This document shows, piece by piece, positions 21,752-38,993 of a stretch of DNA of 40,382 bases. The first letter of the stretch is position 1; every line of letters begins with the position of its first letter. Both the position numbers and the translations under genes were made by a program. Source of the stretch: SAR202 cluster bacterium bin22 (lineage in GTDB: Bacteria > Chloroflexota > Dehalococcoidia > Lucifugimonadales > UBA3495); assembly GCA_002238505.1 (NCBI GenBank), contig MPMM01000008.1:98589-138970 (forward strand), given 5' to 3'. Under the pieces are notes generated by a model that saw nothing but the letters and a program-made list of their open reading frames with translations, was not told the origin of the DNA and made no database searches.

Positions 21752-22277
21752 ATTGCACTCTCTTTTGCCTGTAGATGCCTGTTATCTATTCTCGTCTGTG
21801 AGGCGGCGAAACCGCAGTTCGCTCGCCAATTCCAGGATTCATGAGCCTATGATTCAATATCGGATTTCAACTGAGCCAATTGTGCCCAGCGGTCGGTGGT
21901 ACCCATAGCCGAATTTCTGCCATCACGGCGTCATCAAATATTCGGGAATCAGCTACATCTTACACCCATCGCAGGTGCGCTTGTGACAGGAATTGCGACC
22001 TGTTATCTGCAATATTGCCACACCATAGCCAGGCAGTTCCTCCTATCGGCTTCGGCTTGGAAACGGGGCATCAGGGCCATCACGTCCCAAACTCAAACCA
22101 TAGGAGGCCCACACCCCCCAAACCTCAAGTCATGTCGCCCTGAGCCTGCCGAAGGGCCTCAAATCCTTCCCGACAATTGGCTACGGGTCCGAAAGCCGGC
22201 TTGCCGAATCGTGCTTGCGCTCTCTAACCCTTGCGGAACCACAATTTCCCTATGCGCGACTTCCCTGGGCGCAGCCT
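21752..22277. other. Non-coding gap with a CCCTGAGCCTGCCGAAGGG repeat
   Basis: No gene is supported between the transporter start and element B. A copy of the short repeat CGCCCTGAGCCTGCCGAAGGG is at about 22137-22157; related copies lie at 22319, 30610, 33453, 33573 and 33691. The string is a common dispersed intergenic repeat with the potential to form a short GCCCT/AGGGC stem. Confidence 0.5.
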
Positions 22278-22411
22278 CAGGGTATTTCGATTATTTTGGT
22301 AGAGTCTCTTCCACCGTTCGCCCTGAGCCTGTCGAAGGGCCGCCCGGAATGGTTCTCCAAGCTCACCACCAACGGACTCGAGGAGTTGCCACCGACAATC
22401 GGAAGACCCCG
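22278..22411. mobile_element. Repeat element B, copy 1 (MITE-like, target duplication)
   Basis: This 134-bp element is about 90 percent identical by eye to 30569-30702. Ends are inverted: CAGGGTATTTCGATT on the left, and CGGGGTCTTCCGATT reading inward from the right. Flanking 10-mers GGCGCAGCCT (22268-22277) and AGCGCAGCCC (22412-22421) agree at eight of ten positions, an eroded target-site duplication. It also contains the CCCTGAGCCTGTCGAAGGG repeat. No gene is inside; 22412-22516 is unremarkable leader for ccmE. Confidence 0.8.
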
Positions 22412-23306: not shown

Positions 23307-23404
23307 CGTCATTCCGGCCTTGAGTCGGAATCCAGGATGGTTGCGTAAGGTCAACTACATGGTACAAGAGGGGCTCTGGATCCCGGTTCAAGGCCGGAAT
23401 GACG
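23307..23404. mobile_element. Repeat element D, copy 1 (MITE-like)
   Basis: This 98-bp element has perfect 17-bp terminal inverted repeats, CGTCATTCCGGCCTTGA (23307-23323) and its complement (23388-23404). A related copy is at 26563-26659, so the heme-export genes are bracketed by two copies. The centre includes GGTCAACTACATGGTACAAG. No coding capacity and no clear target duplication were seen. Confidence 0.78.
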
Positions 23405-26562: not shown

Positions 26563-26659
26563 CGTCATTCCGGCCTTGAGCCGGAATCCAGGCAGGTTGC
26601 GAAGGGTCAACTGCGTGGTACAAGAGAGGCTATAGATTCCGGCTTACGCCGGGAAGACG
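26563..26659. mobile_element. Repeat element D, copy 2
   Basis: About 97 bp similar to 23307-23404: the left end CGTCATTCCGGCCTTGA is identical and the interior GGTCAACT-CGTGGTACAAGAG is shared, but the right end has diverged (CCGGCTTACGCCGGGAAGACG). Same orientation as copy 1. Confidence 0.72.
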
Positions 26660-26785
26660 GACTAAACCCCCAACCCATCATTACAATGCCGTTAAACTGA
26701 TAGTCTCTGATTCACCCACCAGGCGGATCCCCTGTTGCGCCGTCAATAAAGCCGGTGGAGAGAAAAGCCCGTGGAGGGGAAGCCC

Positions 26786-27136
26786 ATGTTCAGCTACGGC
26801 CACATAAAGCATCGCAATATGTTCCTGCAGATCATCCTGGTGCTTATCACCCTGGGGCTCTATGGCATCTACTGGTTTCACGTCACCCTGGGCGAACTGC
26901 AGCGGGCCAACGGCAGGGGCCCCGAAGCCGGCCGCTGGAAGTGGACCATTCTTTTCTGTATCCCGCTGTTGGACTTCTTCAGTTTCTGGCATTACTCCGG
27001 CGAGTACTCAGAGTTTGCACGGGGAAAGTATCCCCGCATACTGATATTCATCCTGTGGATTGTCTTCTTTCCCGCTGTCTGGTTCCTGGCGCAAAGCGAT
27101 CTGAACCGGTCGGCCAGCGTTCAATACATGGGCTGA
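26786..27136 (+). CDS. DUF4234-like small membrane protein
   Basis: This protein of about 116 residues starts at the ATG at 26786 behind GGAGGGGAAG; a GTG at 26771 lies inside that site. It carries IKHRNMFLQIILVLITLGLY followed by GIYWFHVTLGELQRANG, the DUF4234 core, and two more helices (FCIPLLDFFSFWHYSGEYSEF, ILIFILWIVFFPAVWFLAQS). It lacks the zinc ribbon of its paralogue next door. It is the first of five small membrane-protein genes in one direction, 21 bases before the next. The function of DUF4234 is unknown. Confidence 0.85.
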   Translation: MFSYGHIKHRNMFLQIILVLITLGLYGIYWFHVTLGELQRANGRGPEAGRWKWTILFCIPLLDFFSFWHYSGEYSEFARGKYPRILIFILWIVFFPAVWFLAQSDLNRSASVQYMG

Positions 27137-27157
27137 AATCTGTGAGGAAACCTGCAA

Positions 27158-27646
27158 ATGGCGGATATTAATAACCCGGCCGGTCCTCCCACCATCTTTT
27201 GCTCCAGTTGTGGCGTCGTTATGGAACACGATGCCCGTTTCTGTTCCAGTTGCGGCGCTGCCAATCCTCATGCGCCCGCCGTGGTCAGCGCTGGCAGCGG
27301 TGCGCGGCGTACCGACCACATCAAGTACCGGAATATGTGGGTGCAGGTACTACTGGCGATCATCACCCTGGGTATCTACACCATCTACTGGTTCCACGTT
27401 ACCCTGGGGGAACTTTACCGGGCCAACGGCGCCGAGGACAGAAGGCGCTGGCTCTGGACGATTCTATACATTATCCCCATAGCCCAGTTTTTCGCCTACT
27501 GGCATCAAGGCTATGAGTACGACAAGTTCGTCAACGGCAAGTTTCCGGGCATTGTCATTTTTGTCCTTTGGATAGTTTTCGGCCCGGCGGTATGGTTCCT
27601 GCTGCAGCGGGACCTGAACGCCGCTGCCAAAGCCACCCAGCGCTAA
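27158..27646 (+). CDS. Zinc-ribbon DUF4234 membrane protein
   Basis: The 162-residue protein joins an N-terminal zinc ribbon (Cys15, 18, 29, 32; FCSSCGVV and FCSSCGAAN) to a DUF4234 domain closely similar to the preceding gene: IKYRNMWVQVLLAIITLGIY, TIYWFHVTLGELYRANG and GIVIFVLWIVFGPAVWFLLQ. The pair is clearly a tandem duplication in which only one copy has the ribbon. It should be a three-helix inner-membrane protein with the ribbon in the cytoplasm. Role unknown; co-transcription with neighbours is likely (19 bases to the next gene). Confidence 0.87.
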   Translation: MADINNPAGPPTIFCSSCGVVMEHDARFCSSCGAANPHAPAVVSAGSGARRTDHIKYRNMWVQVLLAIITLGIYTIYWFHVTLGELYRANGAEDRRRWLWTILYIIPIAQFFAYWHQGYEYDKFVNGKFPGIVIFVLWIVFGPAVWFLLQRDLNAAAKATQR

Positions 27647-27664
27647 ACCACCCAGGAGAGTCCC

Positions 27665-28228
27665 ATGGCCCACATGTACGACGACAACCCCATCTACTGC
27701 TCCACCTGCGGACGCGAATCCGACCCCAGCGCCCGCTTCTGCGACAACTGCGGAGCGACGCTTGAATCGCAGGCCGTCGCCCCCCAGTACGCCCCGGGTA
27801 TGCCCTACTTCGACCAGGACGCCCGCACTGTGGAATACATGGGCTTCTGGATTCGGGCGGCAGCCTTCTTGATTGACGCCATTTTGCTTACCATTGTCAG
27901 ACTGGTTATCCAGGGAGCGCTGGGCGACTCCATACCCGTAACTCTGTTTAATGTGGTGATTAACCTGGCGTATGGGGTGATCATGATCGCCTGGCGCGGC
28001 CAGACCATCGGCAAAATGATCGTTGGCATCCAGGTAGTGGACGCCAACGGCAACGTCCCCGGCATCGGCAGCGTGATACTCAGGGAAGTCGTAGGCAAGT
28101 TCCTGTCAACCATCGCGCTGTTCCTCGGTTACCTGTGGGTAGCCTGGGACAAGGACAAGCGCGGCTGGCACGACCACATCTCGGGAACATATGTGGTGCG
28201 TAAGAGCCGGGCAGACCGGACTCGCTGA
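27665..28228 (+). CDS. Zinc-ribbon RDD family membrane protein
   Basis: The 187-residue protein has a zinc ribbon (Cys12, 15, 26, 29; YCSTCGRE, FCDNCGATL), a short linker, and an RDD domain: GFWIRAAAFLIDAILLTIVR with the Arg and Asp that name the family, GQTIGKMIVGIQVVD, and the C-terminal WDKDKRGWHDHISGTYVV block. RDD proteins are three-helix membrane proteins, some acting as Na+(K+)/H+ antiporters, most uncharacterised. It is the third gene of the small-membrane-protein cluster, 17 bases before the next. Confidence 0.88.
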   Translation: MAHMYDDNPIYCSTCGRESDPSARFCDNCGATLESQAVAPQYAPGMPYFDQDARTVEYMGFWIRAAAFLIDAILLTIVRLVIQGALGDSIPVTLFNVVINLAYGVIMIAWRGQTIGKMIVGIQVVDANGNVPGIGSVILREVVGKFLSTIALFLGYLWVAWDKDKRGWHDHISGTYVVRKSRADRTR

Positions 28229-28245
28229 TCGAGGAGAATCCAGGA

Positions 28246-28647
28246 ATGTTTTGCGTTACCTGCGGCCGGGAAGTCGGCCCCGAAGCCCGCTTCTGCGACA
28301 ATTGCGGCTCGGTTATAGATCGGACCGAAGAACCCGCAACCAACTACGCTCCGGGGGAGCCCCAGCCCGTTCAACCTGGCTATGGCTCTGCTGTTAACAT
28401 CCCCAATTACCTGGTTCAGGCGATCCTGGTCACCATCTTTTGCTGTCTGCCAGCCGGCGTCGTAGCCATAGTCTTTGCCGCCCAGGTGAACGGGAAAGTG
28501 GCCGAGGGTAACCTGCCCGAAGCTCGCCGGCTCTCCAGGAACGCCAGGATCTGGTGCTGGGTCTCCTTCGGCGTGGGCCTGGCCATCGGCATCATCTACG
28601 CCGCCGTCATCATTGCCGCCATAATCGCCGGCTTCGCCCTGGGCTGA
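28246..28647 (+). CDS. Zinc-ribbon CD225/dispanin-like membrane protein
   Basis: The 133-residue protein begins with a zinc ribbon (Cys3, 6, 17, 20; FCVTCGRE, FCDNCGSV), then a Pro-rich linker and a CD225 domain: PNYLVQAILVTIFCCLPAGV, VAIVFAAQVNGKVAEGN, and the second helix ARIWCWVSFGVGLAIGIIY. Eukaryotic CD225 proteins (IFITMs) modify membranes and block viral fusion; bacterial members are common but their roles are unknown. It is fourth in the cluster, only five bases before the DUF2752 start. Confidence 0.88.
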   Translation: MFCVTCGREVGPEARFCDNCGSVIDRTEEPATNYAPGEPQPVQPGYGSAVNIPNYLVQAILVTIFCCLPAGVVAIVFAAQVNGKVAEGNLPEARRLSRNARIWCWVSFGVGLAIGIIYAAVIIAAIIAGFALG

Positions 28648-28652
28648 CAACG

Positions 28653-29096
28653 GTGTTGGAAGCTATCTACAACCGGGGATGGACCTTGGCCGACTTGCCC
28701 CTGTGGCGCTGGCGGTTCCTGCTGCTGGGCTTCGCCATGCTGCCCTGCCTCGCGCTCCTTTACGCCCGCAACCCCGAGGAGCAGGGCCTCTACCCCGTCT
28801 GCCCCTTCTACTTCCTCACCGGGCTCCACTGCCCCGGCTGCGGCGCCCTGCGGGGCCTGCACCAGCTTCTGAATGGCAATGTCATAGCCGCCCTTGGCTA
28901 CAACCCTTTCGCCATGCTGACGTTGCCCTTCATCGGCTACGCCTTCCTCTCCGCCCTGCTGGTCACCACCTGGGGCAAACGCCTGCCCTCTCCCTTCATC
29001 CATCCCGCGCTCATCTGGACGCTCCTGGCCGCCATCCTTGCCTTCTGGACCTTGCGAAACGTCCCCGTTTTCCCCTTCGCCCTGTTGGCTCCCTGA
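28653..29096 (+). CDS. DUF2752 membrane protein
   Basis: I place the start at the GTG at 28653, right after the CD225 stop, because the longer open frame only shadows that gene. The 147-residue protein has the DUF2752 signature YPVCPFYFLTGLHCPGCG followed by ALRGLHQLLNGNVIAALGYNP, with Cys50, Cys60 and Cys63, and three hydrophobic helices. DUF2752 proteins are small membrane proteins of unknown role, often found beside CD225 or TM2 genes. It closes the five-gene cluster; no clear terminator follows. Confidence 0.85.
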   Translation: MLEAIYNRGWTLADLPLWRWRFLLLGFAMLPCLALLYARNPEEQGLYPVCPFYFLTGLHCPGCGALRGLHQLLNGNVIAALGYNPFAMLTLPFIGYAFLSALLVTTWGKRLPSPFIHPALIWTLLAAILAFWTLRNVPVFPFALLAP

Positions 29097-30568: not shown

Positions 30569-30702
30569 CAGGGTCATTCGATTATTGTGGTAGAGTCTCT
30601 TCCACAGTTCGCCCTGAGCCCGTCGAAGGGCCGCCCGGAATGGCTCTCCAAGCTCACCACGAACGGACTCGAGGAGTTGCCACCGACAATCGAAAGACCC
30701 TG
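30569..30702. mobile_element. Repeat element B, copy 2, with perfect 10-bp target duplication
   Basis: This 134-bp element matches 22278-22411. The ends CAGGGTCATTCGATT and, inward from the right, CAGGGTCTTTCGATT are inverted. Directly flanking it, CCTACTCCGC occurs at 30559-30568 and again at 30703-30712, an exact target-site duplication. It inserted 15 bases after the monooxygenase stop. No coding capacity was seen. Confidence 0.88.
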
Positions 30703-33422: not shown

Positions 33423-33448
33423 TTCCCCCTCTGTGGAACCCCTGCCAC

Positions 33449-33716
33449 AATGTCGCCCTGAGCTTGCCGAAGGGCCTCAAATCGCCGCCACAGTACCAGG
33501 CAGGGGCAACTCAACCACCGCCATCCTCAGTCTCTCCGCAACAGAACCACCTCGCCCTCAGCGTCAACAATGTCGCCCTGAGCTTGCCGAAGGGCCTCAA
33601 ATCGCCGCCACAGTACAAGGCAGGGGCAACTCAACCACCGCCATCCTCAGTCTCTCCGCAGCGGAACCACGTCACCCTGAGCTTGTAATGTCGCCCTGAG
33701 CTTGCCGAAGGGCCCG
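33449..33716 (+). repeat. 120-bp tandem repeat, about 2.2 units
   Basis: Units start at 33449, 33569 and (partial) 33687 with AATGTCGCCCTGAGCTTGCC. The first two are almost identical over 120 bases and contain the CCCTGAGC-TGCCGAAGGG dispersed repeat and a CAGGGGCAACTCAACCACCG stretch. They occupy most of the gap between the 2H-like gene and acs. I see no gene here. Confidence 0.85.
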
Positions 33717-33753
33717 AACTCCTTGCAGTCACCCCGTCCCCGTACTCTCGCCC

Positions 33754-37739: not shown

Positions 37740-38961
37740 ATGAAAGTCTATTACTTCAGCGAATTCCCCTACCACGAATACCCCGACGACGAGGGCGAAA
37801 AGTACCCCTCTCTGCGCCTTACCTTCCCCAACACCTACTTTGAACCCGATACCGCCACCGACCTGTTCAAGCGCTACTTCGACGAGTGCACCTACGTCGA
37901 CGAAATGGGCTTCGACGGCATCATGGTCAACGAGCACCACAACACCCCCTCCTGCATGAACGCCTCCTGCAACCTGGCCGCCGCAGTCCTAGCCCGCACC
38001 ACCCAGCAGGCCAAAATCCTGATGCTGGGCAACATCCTGCCCATCCACGACAACCCCGTCCGCCTGGCCGAGGAAATCGCCATGATCGACGTCATCTCCG
38101 GCGGTCGTGTCATCTCCGGCATGGTGCGCGGCACCGGCGTTGAAACCCTGGCCACCAACGGCAACCCCATGTACAACCGCGAGCGCTTCGAGGAGTGCCA
38201 CGACCTGGTCATCAAGACCTGGACCACCCCCGGCCCCTTCCGCTGGGAGGGCAGGCACTACAATTTCCGCGTGGTCAACCCCTGGATGGTCCCCGTCCAG
38301 AAGCCCCATCCGCCCGTATGGGTTCCCGGCACCGCCAGCCCCGAAACGGCCCAGTGGGCCGCGTCCCACGGCTACACCTACGTGGCCTTCCTTACGCCCC
38401 TGGACGTAACCGAAGACCTGTTCCAGATTTACCGCACCACCGCCGCCGAGGAAGGCTACGAGCCCACCCCCGACAACTTCGGCTACCTACTCTGTTGCTA
38501 CGTTGCCGACACCCAGGAGGAGGCCGACGAGCAGGCCCGCCACTTCATCTGGCGCATGGGCACCACCACCCGCGGCCCCCGCGAGTACATGAACCCGGTT
38601 GGCTACCGCTCCCAGCAGGGCGAGCAGGTGGGTGCCCGCCGGGCGCAGGCCCCCCCCCCCCCGCGCCCCCCGAGAGAACAGGACCCCGGTGGCCTCCCGC
38701 GCCCAGCAGGGCGAGCAGGTGCCGGCCCTCCGCGCCGTACGACCCCTCATCCAGCAGAGCTACGAGGAACTCAACGAGAACTACCACATCGTGGCCGGCA
38801 CTCCCGACACAGTGCTGGAAAAGATTCGCTACCTCCACGACCGCCTGGGCATGGAACACCTGATCTTCTACGGCCAGGAATCAAAAATGTCCCACGACGC
38901 CACCATGAAGAACATCGGCCTCTTCGGCAAGGAAGTGCTGCCGGAGATACAGAGGTGGTAG
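37740..38961 (+). pseudogene. Luciferase-like monooxygenase with frameshift at a 13-C tract
   Basis: The gene starts with KVYYFSEFPYHEYPDDEGEK-type sequence after AAAAGGAG and encodes a luciferase-like flavin monooxygenase: DEMGFDGIMVNEHHNTP, VISGGRVISGMVRGTGVE, HPPVWVPGTASPETAQWAA. At 38650-38662 a run of 13 C shifts the frame; the true C-terminus (LIQQSYEELNENYHIVAGTP to EVLPEIQRW) continues in the next frame to 38961. Removing one C restores one open frame of about 406 codons. Around the tract the 20-mer CCCAGCAGGGCGAGCAGGTG occurs twice, 91 bases apart, so a partial duplication is also present. It is either a phase-variable or dead gene, or an assembly error. Confidence 0.82.
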
Positions 38962-38993
38962 AAGAGGGGAAAATTAGCTTGTAATTGCGGCCT

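Follow-up and report, generated by a model that had tools for sequence, protein, structure and literature searches.

A CD225-DUF2752 gene pair shared among bacterial phyla forms the core of a five-gene membrane protein cluster in a SAR202 bacterium

Organization of the gene cluster

The window, by which we mean the whole 40,382-nucleotide stretch of DNA analysed, is located at positions 98589-138970 of contig C12 in the 4.39 Mb assembly of a SAR202 cluster bacterium (G000). Positions 26786-29096 of the window are occupied by five tandem genes, designated A to E, with gaps of 21, 18, 17 and 5 bases (Table 1), in agreement with the first-pass annotation, which described five same-strand genes spaced 5-21 bases apart. 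The membrane domain of each product exceeded its Pfam gathering score, which is 25.3 bits for DUF4234, 24.1 bits for RDD (matched by C over nearly the full length of the profile), 27.1 bits for CD225 and 27.0 bits for DUF2752; gene E additionally carries the CPGCG..R motif. A and B are paralogues.

Table 1. Features of the gene cluster, in window coordinates
Feature	Position	Strand	Description	Evidence
Gene A	26786..27136	+	DUF4234 membrane protein without ribbon, 116 aa	PF14018 33.0 bits; GGAGG upstream
Gene B	27158..27646	+	N-terminal zinc ribbon plus DUF4234, 162 aa	PF14018 27.1 bits; dN/dS 0.09-0.20
Ribbon of B	27200..27253	+	CSSCGVVMEHDARFCSSC	C..C-x10-C..C pattern scan
Gene C	27665..28228	+	N-terminal zinc ribbon plus RDD, 187 aa	PF06271 84.1 bits; Zn_Ribbon_1 25.2 bits
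Ribbon of C	27698..27751	+	CSTCGRESDPSARFCDNC	C..C-x10-C..C pattern scan
Gene D	28246..28647	+	N-terminal zinc ribbon plus CD225 (dispanin/IFITM), 133 aa	PF04505 84.4 bits; Zn_Ribbon_1 29.9 bits
Ribbon of D	28252..28305	+	CVTCGREVGPEARFCDNC	C..C-x10-C..C pattern scan
Gene E	28653..29096	+	DUF2752, predicted 3-helix membrane protein, 147 aa, GTG start at 28653	PF10825 61.1 bits

Shine-Dalgarno-like sequences precede A to D, and a GTG at 26771 is a possible alternative start for A. As the start codon of E lies five bases past the stop codon of D, translation of E is probably coupled to that of D. When G000 was compared with its genus orthologues (NG86), dN/dS was between 0.05 and 0.28 for all five genes (0.05-0.07 for A, which has orthologues in three congeners) and internal stops were absent. 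Therefore, A to E are real genes under purifying selection.

Palindrome-bearing repeats are dispersed through intergenic regions of the window (22129-22409, 23307-23399, 26563-26655, 30569-30700 and 33447-33731), with one copy just upstream of the cluster; they are of the types CCCTGAGC.TG.CGAAGGG and ATTCCGGC...GCCGGAAT. Separately, 91-nt tandem copies with 79% identity and long C runs were found at 38551-38732, inside an ORF at 37740-38984, and look like a degraded sequence or an assembly error.

Zinc ribbon heads of B, C and D

The same N-terminal CxxC-x10-CxxC ribbon had been noted on DUF4234, RDD and CD225 proteins, and B, C and D do carry it. The earlier title implied a ribbon on all five proteins, which was an overstatement, as the ribbon is confined to these three. 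A six-frame scan of the 40 kb window for C..C-x10-C..C returned these three sites only, whereas the pattern was absent from 100 third-order Markov resamples of the window; the trio is therefore not attributable to chance. Genome-wide, Zn_Ribbon_1 (PF13240; cut-off 25 bits) had nine matches above cut-off, including those of B, C and D. The ribbon of B is borderline, scoring 24.1 bits by hmmscan, just below the cut-off, versus 26.4 bits in the genome search. All four ribbon cysteines, comprising two CxxC knuckles, were retained in every genus orthologue.

The heads of C and D have in common the ribbon and a YAPGxP linker, and their ribbon DNA is 82% identical over 50 nt (repeat family D9). In congener G004, the CD225 protein has a C-like head over 147 bases including the leader, with local DNA scores of 97-109 versus 54-66 for D heads. 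Since a genome outside the genus, G007, has a CD225 head similar to this C-type head, the G004 arrangement may reflect either exchange or ancestry. Short N-terminal four-Cys ribbons are likewise found, by weak matches, in zinc-ribbon regulators such as ArnA of Sulfolobus and the '4-Cys prefix' protein kinases (NF045510); these differ from B, C and D in their attached domains and are alike only as docking-type heads.

Conservation within the genus and order

The full five-gene set was found in the same order in congeners G001 and G003, both of which thus have an orthologue of C. In congener G004, A, B and D precede a contig break and E lies at the terminus of a second contig; C is missing from the assembled stretch. 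Outside the genus, G007 has DUF4234, ribbon-CD225 and DUF2752 genes, and in G017 DUF2752 is flanked on both sides by ribbon-RDD. The five-gene form was seen in one genus only, and because most other relatives have just CD225 (one to three copies) and DUF2752, we regard the CD225-DUF2752 pair as the core and the five-gene form as a local enlargement. Within the window's order, CD225 adjoins DUF2752 in 16 of 18 genomes, or 17 if one pair split across contigs is counted.

The cluster has stable synteny in the genus, where it adjoins ccm genes together with a luciferase-like oxidoreductase gene and a lyase-type gene. A functional link to the ccm genes was considered and rejected, as the complete set is adjacent in the genus only. 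In most genomes of the window's family (L082-L089, L093, L095), DUF2752 is followed downstream by a same-strand gene for a luciferase-like monooxygenase. Related SAR202-type Chloroflexota are described as rich in paralogues of catabolic enzymes, and we therefore treat this gene's position as probably synteny only.

The CD225-DUF2752 pair across bacteria

A DUF2752 profile search yielded 80 loci from more than ten phyla, a set biased towards DUF2752 proteins close to the query. The loci are from Chloroflexota, Actinomycetota, Bacteroidota, Cyanobacteria, Planctomycetota (Sedimentisphaerales), Verrucomicrobiota, Lentisphaerota, Hydrogenedentota, Omnitrophota, Armatimonadota, Nitrospirae, Deltaproteobacteria and Clostridia. 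CD225 was present at 62 of these loci and lay directly upstream on the same strand at 59, with spacing mostly between -20 and +60 bases. At two loci (L122, L171) CD225 is downstream of DUF2752, and on an actinobacterial contig (L098) the pair is apparently split by a 450-aa ORF (296-1648) with a transposase-like reading. No natural CD225-DUF2752 fusion was seen.

As the 80-locus set was biased towards relatives of the query, genomes were also sampled by CD225 first. Among 149 Actinomycetota genomes, 12 had CD225 above cut-off, and DUF2752 was adjacent in 11 of the 12. The corresponding figures were three of three for Bacteroidota (148 genomes; one of the three is the seed) and two of two for Chloroflexota (151 genomes; one of the two is the window's own). 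By our own estimate, if a genome of 3-5 Mb holds one DUF2752, the two genes would adjoin by chance in fewer than 1 in 1000 genomes, although related genomes are non-independent. The converse association holds less well, as CD225 was absent from 14 of the 16 Chloroflexota genomes carrying DUF2752.

Divergence of CD225 was correlated with that of DUF2752 (Mantel r 0.53; within-group permutations reached at most 0.44), and the parallel holds within phyla too. Neighbouring genes co-diverge even in the absence of contact, so this result fits transmission of the pair as a unit without proving contact. The first-pass annotation proposed that the genes form one membrane system, a suggestion that would have failed had the cluster been unique to this contig with neighbouring domains not co-conserved; instead, the cluster is kept in the genus and its core pair in more than ten phyla, which supports the proposal.

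Predicted features of the CD225 protein

Gene D belongs to the CD225/dispanin family (PF04505), with IFITM1-3, PRRT1/SynDIG4, PRRT2 and TRARG1, both by profile and by a match to PRRT1/SynDIG4 (phmmer E 2.3e-8). A CC motif (C66, C67) at the first hydrophobic segment was invariant in a 54-sequence alignment of CD225 proteins. The AlphaFold2 model of D, of middling confidence (pLDDT 75, pTM 0.46), has helices at 56-65, 68-86 and 90-132. At that confidence, the helix order is that of SynDIG4 (H1a-H1b, H2), and a Foldseek search with the same model (pLDDT 75) returned nothing significant. Cryo-EM of native AMPA receptors resolved SynDIG4 as a re-entrant H1a-H1b plus H2 (PMC13262616). Gene D resembles dispanins in its CC motif, putatively in a cytosolic N-terminal extension and, as modelled at middling confidence, in a helix pair followed by a long helix. 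It differs from them in having an N-terminal zinc ribbon in place of a Pro-rich or IFITM tail, and in its operon with DUF2752, RDD and DUF4234, in which an antiviral context is absent.

Predicted features of the DUF2752 protein

Gene E is a full-length member of the DUF2752 family (PF10825) with CPGCG..R, and nothing sets it apart from other members. In a 77-sequence alignment, T56, G57, C60, P61, G62, C63, G64, R67, R135 and N136 were invariant, and C50 and N84 were kept in 76 sequences. The AlphaFold2 model (pLDDT 88.8) has three long helices, and the CPGC motif starts a shorter helix at 61-73. Profile, Foldseek and VIA-align searches of the PDB found no solved structure resembling DUF2752. 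Mean net charge across the 77 sequences was +2.0 for the N-terminus, +2.3 for loop 2, +0.2 for the Cys loop and -0.2 for the C-terminus; by the positive-inside rule, this distribution predicts that the Cys loop and the RN end lie on the extracytoplasmic side. From their conservation, the most economical guess is that the C..CPGCG..R and RN residues probably form a thiol or metal site, though any specific CPGC chemistry would be a long shot. The idea of a thiol system shared between the CD225 CC motif and the DUF2752 CPGC motif was set aside, as their predicted membrane sides differ and TM2 can replace CD225.

Variation in partners and heads

The partner of DUF2752 varies among loci. Among 93 Bacteroidota DUF2752 copies, TM2 was within 1 kb in 56, CD225 in 3 and neither in 34. 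These TM2-DUF2752 pairs likewise have a small hairpin membrane protein beside DUF2752, with about 300-450 bases between domain starts, and have TM2 where the window operon has CD225. DUF2752 loci without CD225 have DUF4190, RDD or TM2 upstream. Given the 14 of 16 Chloroflexota genomes described above and these 34 Bacteroidota copies, CD225 is not essential to DUF2752. In Streptosporangiales (L113, L134, L145, L158, L162, L167, L170, L175 and others), the DUF2752 locus lies between a Trp_oprn_chp membrane gene and trpC, and the hairpin partner may be CD225, DUF4190 or RDD. In six Bacteroidota loci (L107, L116, L136, L148, L165, L191), an additional DUF2752-like gene of reduced length (94-109 aa) adjoins an MpPF26/DUF4190-like hairpin gene; this possible parallel pair sometimes adjoins the CD225-DUF2752 pair.

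The CD225 heads vary as well. Ribbon heads were found in Chloroflexota, Sedimentisphaerales, Clostridia, Lentisphaerota, Hydrogenedentota, Omnitrophota, Nitrospirae and Deltaproteobacteria, while heads are Gly/Pro-rich in Actinomycetota and short in Bacteroidota and Cyanobacteria. In an Armatimonadota locus (L164:4646-5929), a Ser/Thr protein kinase-ribbon-CD225 fusion is followed by DUF2752, which argues for a cytosolic location of the CD225 head. The first-pass annotation suggested a common cytosolic docking partner for the ribbons. Head sharing between C and D, the C-type head of the G004 CD225 protein and the kinase fusion make such a partner plausible.

The small membrane families that recur beside CD225 loci are MpPF26 and DUF4190, at two loci each. 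A third partner shared by CD225-DUF2752 pairs was sought and rejected, the flanks being mixed housekeeping genes.

Search for links to phage defense

A phage-related or antiviral role had been raised for the cluster. PADLOC returned zero family matches for A to E at E 0.01, and the flanks of CD225 loci held no recurrent defense family. Searches with short peptide patterns found no relatives in 2.9 million viral contigs, and 50,697 phage records gave one weak match only, without annotation. Considering these results together with PHROGs, we rejected a defense-island or phage origin, and the suggested role, in a cluster with ordinary neighbours, gained no support.

Discussion

Conservation of the CD225-DUF2752 pair across bacteria is a direct observation, as are the content and order of the genes, the exchange of hairpin partners and of heads, and the invariant residues. 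On balance, we lean towards reading the pair as an old two-gene module and, jointly with this, the operon as encoding a membrane complex whose hairpin proteins, their heads in the cytosol, would be accessory subunits of DUF2752. The conserved core of this complex would be D and E. As a dispanin, D would have a re-entrant helix pair and one transmembrane helix, with its N-terminus and loop in the cytosol, and it would serve E as an accessory subunit. That role is suggested by the match to SynDIG4/PRRT1, an AMPA-receptor auxiliary subunit. E would be a three-helix protein in which the C..CPGCG..R and RN residues cluster extracytoplasmically. In the genus of the window, the module would have been enlarged by the RDD protein C and the two DUF4234 proteins, A and B. 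The similar ribbons heading B, C and D, predicted to be cytosolic, may bind each other or one shared cytosolic regulator, and would thereby join further hairpin subunits to the D-E core. The complex probably works in some general function of the envelope or membrane, and less likely in phage defense.

Alternatively, the five genes might be co-transcribed for general use, their small membrane proteins forming no stoichiometric complex and the ribbons being a cytosolic cap spread by local duplication. The similarity of the C and D ribbon DNA means that the heads may simply be copies; ribbons also occur on other proteins in the window genome, A and B are paralogous, and the module's flanks hold housekeeping genes of many kinds, among which no third partner recurs. 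However, nearly every CD225 genome has an adjacent DUF2752, across phyla with wholly different surroundings, which co-expression explains poorly, and we consider this alternative rather unlikely.

It is improbable that the cluster is instead a thiol-redox module, with E as an outer-face thiol/disulfide or metal-handling protein for exported Cys proteins, perhaps in cytochrome c maturation. The nearly or fully invariant C50, C60-P-G-C63, R67, R135 and N136, the position of CPGC at the N-terminus of a helix and the adjacent ccmE, ccmC, ccmB and ccmA genes in the window and two congeners are all in keeping with such a function. Yet a complete ccm set adjoins the cluster within the genus only, the module lies between trp genes in Streptosporangiales and beside unrelated genes elsewhere, and the CxxC of DUF2752 may bind metal or be structural. 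That the cluster is an anti-phage membrane system and bacterial forerunner of IFITM restriction is highly improbable given that the scans above found no PADLOC family, recurrent defense flank or viral-contig relative and that, throughout the genus, the cluster keeps its place next to ccm, luciferase-like and lyase-type genes, even though D has a CD225 domain and mycobacterial CD225 proteins conferred moderate influenza resistance on human cells (PMC4488726).

Animal CD225 proteins have been studied intensively for their parts in virus restriction, at synapses and in glucose transport, and bacterial relatives have been proposed as their evolutionary source. We know of no function for these bacterial relatives. 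The founding dispanin paper covers bacterial members without gene context, and the words 'operon' and 'zinc' are absent from it (PMC3282796). In the open-licence literature searched, no paper mentioned DUF2752, alone or with CD225. All of the domains are already catalogued, and on that coverage priority for the CD225-DUF2752 pairing cannot be claimed.

We read the swaps of hairpin partner (CD225, TM2, DUF4190, RDD) and of head (ribbon, Pro-rich, kinase) as suggesting one modular membrane system that databases list as separate domains of unknown function. We propose tentatively, and with some doubt, that the dispanins of bacteria serve DUF2752 as its dedicated accessory subunits, and that this membrane protein bears a CPGC active site or metal site on its extracytoplasmic face. 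If this is true, the ancestors of animal IFITM/PRRT-type proteins would have been accessory subunits in a membrane machine of bacteria, with ribbon, Pro-rich and kinase heads acting as interchangeable cytosolic control modules. The near-constant neighbour DUF2752 provides a first concrete partner with which the role of bacterial IFITM relatives can be tested, and such tests could include Bacteroidota and Actinomycetota that grow in culture.
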